A stretch of DNA of 64,000 nucleotides. Source: Chromohalobacter moromii. GTDB taxonomy: Bacteria; Pseudomonadota; Gammaproteobacteria; Pseudomonadales; Halomonadaceae. Each line of letters opens with the position of its first letter. Position 1 is the stretch's first letter. Under the pieces are notes generated by a model. The model was not told the origin of the DNA and ran no database searches. It was given only the letters and a program-made list of their open reading frames with translations. A program made the position numbers and the translations under genes. The DNA is taken from positions 620,001 to 684,000 of the forward strand of contig NZ_JAHXDI010000002.1 of the NCBI RefSeq assembly GCF_023091865.1, written 5' to 3'. Of this stretch, positions 52,333 through 53,881 are shown one piece after another.

Positions 52333-52463
52333 GGCGCGACCCGCTGTCTTGCGTGATCGTGTTTCAGGAGCCCTTCGAGGAACGGGCGCTTGAAATGAAC
52401 GCGGAAGTGCCCAACCTCTACGAGTGTAACGTGGTGCACAAGGTGAATGGCAAAAGGATCACC

Positions 52464-52910
52464 ATGGATCGATTTATGCAGGCGGCCATCGACGAGGCGC
52501 GCAAAGGATACGACGCGGGTGGGGTTCCCATCGGTTCGGTGCTTGTGCATCGGGGGGTTATCATCGGGCGTGGGCACAACCAACGCCAGCAGCGTGGTAG
52601 TGCCATTTTGCACGGCGAAATGGACGCCTTGGAAAACGCCGGTCGTTTGGCGGCGCATGTGTATCGTGAAGCGGTGCTTTATACCACACTGTCACCTTGT
52701 GCCATGTGCAGTGGCGCCATTTTGCTCTATGGCATCCCCGAAATCGTGATAGGCGAAAATTCGACCTTTCAAGGTGAGGAAGCATTATTACGTCAACGTG
52801 GTGTCACGCTCACGGTCTACGATGATCCCCAGTGCAAGGCGCTGATGGAACGGTTCATCGTCGAAAGGCCCGAGATCTGGTACGAAGATATTGGCGAGTC
52901 CTGCATGTAG
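52464..52910 (+). CDS. Yeast-type cytosine deaminase
   Basis: 148 residues of the CDA/TadA zinc deaminase fold. Zinc and catalytic residues H50, E52, C79 and C82 (HGEMDALENAGR; SPCAMCSGAILLYGIP). Compared with Saccharomyces Fcy1, N39 in GRGHNQR and W139/D142 in the C-terminal IWYEDIGE occupy the same spacing as N51, W152 and D155, which bind cytosine. So it is a cytosine deaminase of the fungal type rather than TadA or E. coli CodA. AAGGA lies 5 nt before the ATG; the longer frame upstream (52353) lacks this. Ends at a terminator. Confidence 0.88.
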   Translation: MDRFMQAAIDEARKGYDAGGVPIGSVLVHRGVIIGRGHNQRQQRGSAILHGEMDALENAGRLAAHVYREAVLYTTLSPCAMCSGAILLYGIPEIVIGENSTFQGEEALLRQRGVTLTVYDDPQCKALMERFIVERPEIWYEDIGESCM

Positions 52911-52927
52911 GGCTTGTCTACTCTGTA

Positions 52928-52957
52928 CCATGAGGCCTGGATGGCCTCATGGACTTT
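52928..52957 (+). terminator. Intrinsic terminator after the deaminase gene
   Basis: CCATGAGGCC (52928-52937) pairs perfectly with GGCCTCATGG (52943-52952), then ACTTTT. Confidence 0.85.
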
Positions 52958-53004
52958 TAGGAAATTGCCGGCCCCCGGCAGAAATGAGCGACTCAAGGAG
53001 AGAA

Positions 53005-53496
53005 ATGATGACGTATAAGCAATGGACGATGAGTGCGTTGGCATTGGTGATGTCACTTGGCCTAGCGGCCTGCGATAGCGGTGACGATCCCGCTCAGGAA
53101 GCTTCAAACAATAGCGAACAGGCGGCTGAAGAAACCCAGCAAGCTGCTGACGAGGCTGGCGACGAAATGTCCGAGATGAGCGACGAAGCCAGCGACGACA
53201 TGGAAGAAATGGGTGACAACGCGGCTGATGAGTCCTCCGATGCCATGGATGAAGCGGGCGAAGAGATAGACGAAGCGCAAGATGCAACTGCAGACGCCGT
53301 CGATGAAGCCGGCGATGAAATGAGCGAAGCCGCCGATGAGGCTGGCGATGCAATGGATAATGCCGCTGACGAAACACAAGAGGCAGCGGACGAGGCAACC
53401 GACGAAGCGGCGGATGAAATGGACGACGCGGCTGACGAAGCCGAGCAGCAAGCGGATGAGCTTGAAAACGAAGCCGAAGACGACAACCAGTCGTAA
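53005..53496 (+). CDS. Extremely acidic Ala/Asp/Glu-repeat lipoprotein
   Basis: 163 residues. Signal sequence with lipobox LAAC (the Cys is C23), followed by about 140 residues made almost entirely of A, D, E, M, S, Q, N, G and T. The mature part contains no Lys, Arg, His, Phe, Tyr or Trp. Repeats of DEAGDEMSE/DEAADE type with regular Ala/Met spacing suggest a single long helix or coiled coil. AAGGAG lies 4 nt before ATG 53005 (7 nt before ATG 53008). Own terminators on both sides. A surface or periplasmic polyanion role is inference; no family recognised. Confidence 0.85.
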   Translation: MMTYKQWTMSALALVMSLGLAACDSGDDPAQEASNNSEQAAEETQQAADEAGDEMSEMSDEASDDMEEMGDNAADESSDAMDEAGEEIDEAQDATADAVDEAGDEMSEAADEAGDAMDNAADETQEAADEATDEAADEMDDAADEAEQQADELENEAEDDNQS

Positions 53497-53523
53497 CATC
53501 GTCGTCTCATGCCGTTAGAGGCA

Positions 53524-53563
53524 AGGGCACATGGCGTGTGGGTATGCGCCATGTGCCCTCTTT
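53524..53563 (+). terminator. Intrinsic terminator after the acidic lipoprotein
   Basis: A perfect 13-bp stem (53524-53536 with 53547-53559) and 10-nt loop, followed by CTTTC. Confidence 0.75.
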
Positions 53564-53596
53564 CGTATACGGCAAGGACAGTCATATATGATCTGG

Positions 53597-53626
53597 AAAT
53601 AAAAGAGCCCACCGTTAGGTGGGCTC
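53597..53626 (-). terminator. Intrinsic terminator of the cold-shock gene
   Basis: On the minus strand a 9-bp stem (GAGCCCACC/GGTGGGCTC, 53605-53613 with 53618-53626) and 4-nt loop is followed by TTTTATTT, about 50 bp after the csp stop. Confidence 0.9.
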
Positions 53627-53674
53627 ATGCGTTCGGAGTCCGATGTCGGTCTCACGACCGCTGGGGTATCGGAA

Positions 53675-53881
53675 TTAACCGACCACCTTGATGTTGGACG
53701 CCTGCAGGCCTTTCTTGCCCTGGGTGACCTCAAAGCTCACTTTTTGGCCATCCTGCAGCGTTTTGAAGCCTTCAGCCTGGATCTCGGAGAAGTGCGCGAA
53801 TAGGTCATCGCCACCATCTTCCGGAGAGATGAAGCCGTAGCCTTTGGTGTCGTTGAACCATTTGACAGTGCCAGTTGCCAT
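53675..53881 (-). CDS. CspA-family cold-shock protein
   Basis: 68 residues, one OB-fold cold-shock domain. RNA-binding motifs [12 protein letters not shown] (RNP1 type) and DLFAHFS (RNP2 type) are intact. Acts as an RNA chaperone or antiterminator; the paralogue type cannot be named. TAAGGAA lies 6 nt before the ATG. An upstream in-frame extension lacks family features. The long region upstream probably includes a structured 5' UTR, as in cspA genes. Confidence 0.95.

Follow-up and report, generated by a model that had tools for sequence, protein, structure and literature searches.

Two lipoproteins of other bacteria were the nearest described ones that we found to the protein reported here, and neither is a family match by curated cut-offs. 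BilRI is an outer-membrane lipoprotein of Aggregatibacter actinomycetemcomitans that, in the portion of its description available to us, is LEA_4-like and built from 11-residue repeats (PMC8096337). Two servers predicted 92 and 97% helix for BilRI, but NMR found at most 19-21% in the repeats, making the protein disordered by NMR despite a confident helix prediction (same portion of PMC8096337). Ag473 (NMB1468) of Neisseria meningitidis, again as given in the available part of the source, is an Ala-rich lipoprotein with tandem repeats and no aromatic residue (PMC3402496). An aspartate at position +2 of a mature lipoprotein leads to inner-membrane retention in E. coli, a rule that the accessible text calls less general outside enterobacteria (PMC6469965). 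Searching by title and abstract opening, we found no paper on the lipoprotein analysed here, and the portion of a salinity RNA-seq study that was at hand does not mention it (PMC6104435).

We analysed a window of Chromohalobacter moromii DNA (the whole stretch of 64,000 nucleotides), which contains the gene of an unusually acidic lipoprotein (Table 1). The signal peptide ends in LAA-C23 by translation of the ORF, and the C-terminus is DDNQS. As originally predicted, the approximately 140 residues after the lipidated cysteine lack Lys, Arg, His, Phe, Tyr and Trp altogether: there are none among the 141 residues from Cys23 onward. Sixty of these residues are acidic (30 D and 30 E), alongside 33 A, 10 S, 9 Q and 8 M, in line with the predicted abundance of Ala, Asp, Glu and Met. 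As own-genome background we used the window and a further 20 segments of 20 kb from its contig, 464 kb in all of a 3.47-Mb genome, from which greedy non-overlapping selection of ORFs (80 aa or longer) gave 440 for ranking. The lipoprotein had both the longest run free of K/R/H/F/Y/W (156 aa, 15 of them in the signal peptide; runner-up 63) and the most negative 100-aa stretch (-47; runner-up -26), and because it came first in both rankings its composition is not a matter of chance. Of six further lipobox ORFs in this genome, five were near neutral, at -0.04 to -0.11 per residue.

Table 1. Features at the lipoprotein locus (positions in the window)
Feature	Position	Strand	Basis and remarks
Acidic lipoprotein coding sequence	53005..53496	+	ORF, 163 aa counted from the first ATG; probable true start 53008
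Signal peptide MMTYKQWTMSALALVMSLGLAA	53005..53070	+	Part common to tadA-linked lipoproteins of other genera
Lipobox Cys (mature +1)	53071..53073	+	Residue +2 is Asp, invariant in 10/10 orthologues
Acidic hendecad-dominated body, residues 29-162	53089..53490	+	Period 3.64; predicted single unbroken helix
AAGGAG	52995..53000	+	Sequence; identical in 10/10 aligned loci; presumed ribosome-binding site
Hairpin between tadA-like gene and lipoprotein gene	52928..52952	+	Sequence; 10-bp stem
Intrinsic terminator-like hairpin 3' of lipoprotein gene	53524..53559	+	Terminator scan; 16 pairs
tadA-like deaminase gene, upstream neighbour (landmark)	52353..52910	+	ORF; PF00383 82.7 bits; upstream in related loci

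Translation probably starts at the second ATG, since C. marismortui lacks the first in an alignment of 10 Chromohalobacter loci. Under the E. coli rule the invariant +2 aspartate would point to inner-membrane retention, though that rule may be less applicable to this host. We take the upstream deaminase gene to be tadA, a name that we assume. Folding predicted a stem for the hairpin between the two genes in all 10 loci; in C. israelensis two base pairs differ on both arms of the stem, and four other loci carry mismatches. The hairpin is possibly the terminator of the tadA-like gene, and was absent from the sites given by the terminator scan. A sigma-70 scan from 52800 to 53700 found no promoter, and a DNA tandem-repeat search returned three short arrays only. 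Third positions changed in 3/52 cases in codons 2-12, in 11/76 in codons 13-23 and in 20-40% further on. RNA-level constraint at the 5' end of the gene was set aside; we read this gradient, for which there was no control on other genes, as ordinary start-region constraint.

The gene was present in every one of 10 Chromohalobacter genomes searched, so that absence in all relatives, the finding named beforehand as speaking against the protein, does not apply. A further search returned nine loci, eight of them from Chromohalobacter (family Halomonadaceae), which agrees with the proposed link to halophiles; the ninth, a Streptomyces match (L089, E 6e-5), was set aside as weak. The dN/dS of the mature part was 0.07-0.14 in seven of nine orthologue comparisons, synonymous sites being saturated in the other two. 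These values rule out a frame artefact, the other objection raised in the original prediction, and indicate strong purifying selection on the Chromohalobacter body. Internal stops suspected in the C. marismortui copy were dismissed, as its ORF is open (152 codons counted from the previous stop). Among the derived residue states counted in the orthologue alignment, which are not independent events, 3 of 113 were K/R/H/F/Y/W, all of them Lys, against 18-21% expected from the codons. This deficit indicates that the lack of basic and aromatic residues is maintained by selection, though not absolutely: 4 of the 10 orthologues have a single Lys, and the strict basic-free state is therefore not fully kept. 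Mature length ranged from 110 to 141 residues. Lipobox, composition and conservation all back the view that the product is lipid-anchored and polyanionic.

The mature part had been described as heptad-like, and here the prediction has to be revised in favour of a hendecad-dominated repeat. The hydropathy period peaked at 3.63-3.64 in 10/10 orthologues (3.64 in the window protein), between 18/5 and 11/3, and no shuffle out of 500 matched the observed peak. Power at the heptad value of 3.5 was 0.3-1.9, against 33-41 at the peak, which excludes a heptad coiled coil. A pure hendecad is not exact either, as power at 3.6 exceeded that at 3.667 in 3 of 10 orthologues; by its sequence periodicity, a peak between 18/5 and 11/3 is as expected for hendecads mixed with some heptads. 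Identity by lag was highest at 22 and 11, and in the C-terminal half the hendecads are easily seen (EAQDATADAVD EAGDEMSEAAD EAGDAMDNAAD ETQEAADEATD EAADEMDDAAD EAEQQADELEN). The body of about 130 residues is thus almost purely acidic, with a stripe of Ala and Met at hendecad-like spacing. Nine of ten internal alignment gaps among the orthologues were 4, 7, 11 or 22 residues long and so kept the phase (two terminal gaps excluded; one count per place and length gives 7/8); the formal p of this test overstates the effect because several gaps are common by descent yet were treated separately.

That the repeat forms a rod, as first proposed, was upheld in one respect and weakened in two. AlphaFold, run on a 10-row alignment, predicted one helix over residues 29-162 (mean pLDDT 81.9, pTM 0.39), and a single-chain AlphaFold helix of an Ala-rich repeat is weak evidence. 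The charge-hydropathy balance of 0.352 lies on the disordered side of the boundary of 0.566, as it does for 3 of 6 control lipobox ORFs, and the helix prediction for BilRI, a comparable protein, failed; as an analogy drawn from the part of that report available, BilRI is the strongest warning against taking a predicted helix at face value. A PDB sequence search gave 12 weak matches (best E 1e-4), mostly to designed helical proteins, which we attributed to composition.

In profile searches, none of the Pfam and NCBIfam families listed for the lipoprotein reached its cut-off. Matches to apolipoprotein A1/A4/E (PF01442; 29.7 bits, E 6e-7, curated cut-off 90), YtxH (PF12732; 21.3 bits, curated cut-off 37.5) and Ag473 lipoprotein (NF047840; 28.1 bits, curated cut-off 100) were taken as composition-driven and rejected. 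With E values up to 10 admitted, the Pfam list for the protein did not include LEA_4 (PF02987); HMMER filters may drop weak matches in such a search. The original prediction had recognised no family at all, and this has not stood, as both the anchor and the genomic place of the protein are common to lipoproteins of other Halomonadaceae genera (referred to below by number, g3, g5 and so on). With a threshold of E 1e-30, a tadA-like gene was matched in 40 of the 71 family genomes, from 13 genera, and the linkage counts cover these 40 only. A lipoprotein ORF lay downstream at 30 of the 40 loci, in 10 of the 13 genera (22 in a first set of 30 loci, 8 in the remaining 10), with only lipobox-type ORFs scored as present; no lipoprotein was found at the tadA loci of g3 (5 genomes), g20 (3) and g21 (2). 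Downstream frames L057, L062 and L073, and second frames at L071, L072, L074, L078 and L079, were dropped as basic or Pro-rich non-lipoproteins, and at L051 the program misassigned the lipobox in a correct reading frame. In the window the gene likewise lies directly downstream of its tadA-like neighbour, on the same strand.

A profile of about 32 N-terminal residues, built from 18 of 24 non-Chromohalobacter members, gave the window protein 55 bits (E 2e-17), against at most 11.5 for the 88 other lipobox candidates in the 464 kb of its own genome. The match covers the signal peptide and the first mature residues. Lipoproteins at other places can also score on this profile (G029 25.5 and G055 25.9 bits). 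By anchor and place, the window protein represents, in Chromohalobacter, a Halomonadaceae lipoprotein whose gene stands beside a tadA-like gene. We also observed a promoter-like element, TTG-N20..22-TG[C/G]AAT, whose first base lies 59-97 nt before the start codon at 18 of the 23 loci outside Chromohalobacter, from g5, g6, g11, g14, g16 and g19 (for example L064, L067, L070 and L094). Its background is about 0.003 per 200 bp of own-genome DNA, for a pattern picked after viewing the sequences; it was absent in g7, g9, g23 and the 3 Chromohalobacter loci checked.

The bodies behind this anchor are of several types: acidic hendecads in g1; Lys-containing hendecads in g6 (period 3.65 in the one computed), except that at L074, one of the five g6 loci, the first half is rich in Pro and Lys; an acidic low-complexity linker followed by a conserved C-terminal segment in g5, g11, g14, g19 and g23; low complexity in g7 and g9; and a Pro/Thr-rich body with no K/R/H/F/Y/W in g16. 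One representative from each of 10 genera was net acidic in every case (-0.12 to -0.43 per residue), and all 10 fell on the disordered side, a weak test in that 3 of 6 control lipobox ORFs did likewise. We compared the window body with those of 17 tadA-place relatives of other genera against residue-shuffled versions. It resembled g6 bodies beyond the shuffles (z 4.7, 8.7 and 9.0) and, in part, those of g19 (z 2.3-4.7), g14 (2.9) and g11 (0.5 and 1.9), and did no better than shuffles with g5 (z 0.5, 1.4), g7 (-1.0, 1.4), g9 (0.6), g16 (0.7) and g23 (1.3). Block shuffles of 11 residues matched the g6 scores in 4-19 of 200 trials, which shows that the shared repeat accounts for much of the resemblance to g6.

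An alignment that we call A3, of seven proteins from g5, g11, g14, g19 and g23, defines a C-terminal helix-like segment with K/R and F (consensus ETERRFEEAQxEIDxQF). Its profile matched 38 of the 71 family genomes, with 31 strong matches at E 1e-24 or better, spread over 11 genera, and 7 weak ones. The window protein has no such segment, and its own genome gave no match to the profile at E 1e-4; in 2 of 6 genus genomes (G004 and G007) the profile found the Chromohalobacter orthologue, at E about 1e-8 and 9e-8. In g20 and g21 the strong hits and the tadA-like gene were on different contigs; the two genes are therefore often, but not always, linked. In four g20 genomes (G028, G067, G079 and G089) the profile matched twice per frame of 262-297 codons, the C-terminal part being seemingly duplicated. 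The A3-type lipoproteins are like the Chromohalobacter protein in their tadA-adjacent place, similar signal peptide and acidic mature start, and differ in having an acidic low-complexity linker and a K/R/F segment where the Chromohalobacter body is an unbroken acidic repeat.

These comparisons could well describe one place and one anchor with changeable acidic bodies, in which what is inherited would be a lipid-anchored polyanion and not a fold, and Chromohalobacter would be the K/R/H/F/Y/W-free extreme; we consider this a serious possibility, just short of being probable. The dissimilar designs that it would have to span are acidic hendecads, Lys-containing hendecads, an acidic linker with a terminal helix, and Pro/Thr-rich bodies, and we hold this part with the same reserve. 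It is made less probable by the resemblance of the g6 bodies, and in part those of g14 and g19, to the window body.

A second acidic lipoprotein, short and of a type that we name by its motif GPAEEAGE, occurs in 10/10 Chromohalobacter genomes. A Tim44-like gene (PF04280) is also at its locus in 10/10, with two partial or weak matches. The copy in the genome of the window (L035/L102, G000:C2:138-308) has a 41-residue mature part free of K/R/H/F/Y/W. It is like the window lipoprotein in this acidic mature part and in sharing its genome, and differs in anchor profile, place and length: the GPAEEAGE profile gave the window protein 24.4 bits and two members kept outside the profile 62.9 and 68.9. 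A 5S rRNA gene lay near the GPAEEAGE lipoprotein in 3 of 8 loci of other genera (L018, L025 and L029), the 8 being those covered by the Rfam scan; L020, L025 and L029 are further loci with short acidic lipoproteins of this type. In g21 (G029, locus L011) a long acidic body with a period of 3.63 follows the GPAEEAGE anchor; it is closer to the window body (z 12.7) than any g6 body is, and no Tim44-like gene was found at that locus. This similar body on another anchor suggests that the acidic repeat design either arose twice or was moved between anchors. Elsewhere, two lipoprotein genes, L013 and L028 (G025:C10), follow a 5S rRNA gene in tandem and encode unlike bodies rich in Ala, Asp, Ser and Lys, and L105 in the own genome, at about 10.9-11.3 kb, has two small lipoprotein frames close together, which we take to be entericidin-like.

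We tentatively favour, while holding it somewhat less than probable, the reading that the lipoprotein is a lipid-anchored, polyanionic, hydrated tether or spacer that may be helical only where salt screens its charge. The lipid would hold the protein to the membrane, facing the periplasm. At low ionic strength, repulsion among some 60 carboxylates would leave the chain extended and disordered; in the high salt of the habitat the charges would be screened and a helix gained, either alone or weakly associated through the Ala/Met stripe. Such a tether would keep cations and water near the membrane, and the protein is probably not an enzyme but a charged cushion or spacer. This reading is supported by the outlier composition, the periodicity in 10/10 orthologues, the phase-keeping gaps and the avoidance of basic and aromatic residues, as well as by the similarity of anchor, the place at 30 of 40 tadA loci, the acidity and predicted disorder of the representatives of all 10 genera, the near-neutral charge of most other lipobox ORFs of the genome and the AlphaFold helix. 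What is preserved across genera seems to be the anchor and the bulk negative charge, not the fold. Two results count against it: the low dN/dS means that the exact body is more constrained than a generic brush requires, and the conserved K/R/F segment (seven proteins; strong matches in 31 of 71 genomes) suggests a specific partner at that segment, which fits charge alone poorly.

We think it unlikely that the protein is instead a LEA-like protectant, membrane-anchored and disordered, whose amphipathic hendecad helix would form on water loss and shield the membrane or periplasmic proteins under osmotic or drying stress. The hendecad-like period, the richness in Ala, Asp and Glu and the charge-hydropathy disorder would suit such a role, as would the g6 relative, whose Lys-containing hendecad body is related to that of the window protein beyond composition, and BilRI offers, in the part of its description seen, the precedent of an 11-mer LEA_4-like lipoprotein. 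The absence of LEA_4 from the families listed points the other way, however; the window protein lacks the Lys of the LEA_4 pattern and has no basic residues at all for pairing with lipid headgroups.

Somewhat more doubtful still is the idea that only anchor and expression matter, with the body a near-arbitrary spacer and the working C-terminal helix of several other genera lost or replaced in Chromohalobacter. This idea would account for the bodies of g5, g7, g9, g16 and g23, which match the window body no better than do shuffled versions of themselves (z -1.0 to 1.4) while the N-termini are alike, and for the C-terminal segment common to the seven aligned proteins. It sits badly with strong purifying selection on the Chromohalobacter body, with the helical phase that is kept, and with the likeness of the g6 (z 4.7-9.0) and partly the g14 and g19 (z 2.3-4.7) bodies.

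A structural spacer like Lpp, a helical lipoprotein that fixes envelope spacing by oligomerising, is very improbable even given the long predicted helix with its Ala stripe: the protein has no C-terminal Lys, PF04728 and NF040598 were not listed for it (which led us to reject identity with Lpp), its repeat is hendecad-like and not heptad, and its mature length varies from 110 to 141 residues within the genus. PF04728 was absent from all 10 genus genomes, the control matching only in E. coli, and in each of these genomes a separate alanine-zipper lipoprotein (NF040598, above cut-off) is encoded at another place. A surface-exposed antigen or ligand-binding lipoprotein like Ag473 or BilRI, with which the protein shares an aromatic-free, Ala-rich, repetitive composition class (as far as their available descriptions go) and a weak Ag473-profile score, is hardly credible, the score being far under the cut-off and an acidic body being expected to repel DNA.

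Were the reading of one anchor with changeable bodies right, the family would provide, in salt-living bacteria, a naturally occurring set of acidic bodies behind a single anchor, which would allow one to ask if bulk polyanion charge near the membrane, and not a fold, gets selected; a hendecad-type protein free of Lys and aromatics would also be a clean test of salt-driven coil-to-helix folding. Compared with known systems, the Chromohalobacter protein is like Lpp/OprI (PF04728, NF040598) in having an Ala-rich helix, here predicted, on a lipid anchor, and differs in lacking the terminal Lys, in its hendecad-like repeat and in being far more acidic. With Ag473 it shares the lipid anchor, Ala-richness, tandem repeats and freedom from aromatics, whereas the Ag473 repeats are described, in the part of the source at hand, as 7-residue, and the score of 28.1 bits compares with a cut-off of 100. 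With BilRI it shares 11-residue repeats in a lipoprotein of low complexity, without aromatics and predicted to be helical; in the available description, however, KD[A/T] closes ten of the eleven BilRI repeats, whereas the Chromohalobacter protein has no Lys in 141 residues and no listed Pfam LEA_4 match. The composition of the Chromohalobacter protein is a real and strongly selected oddity, found in one variant of a Halomonadaceae lipoprotein whose anchor is common to several genera and whose acidic body varies.
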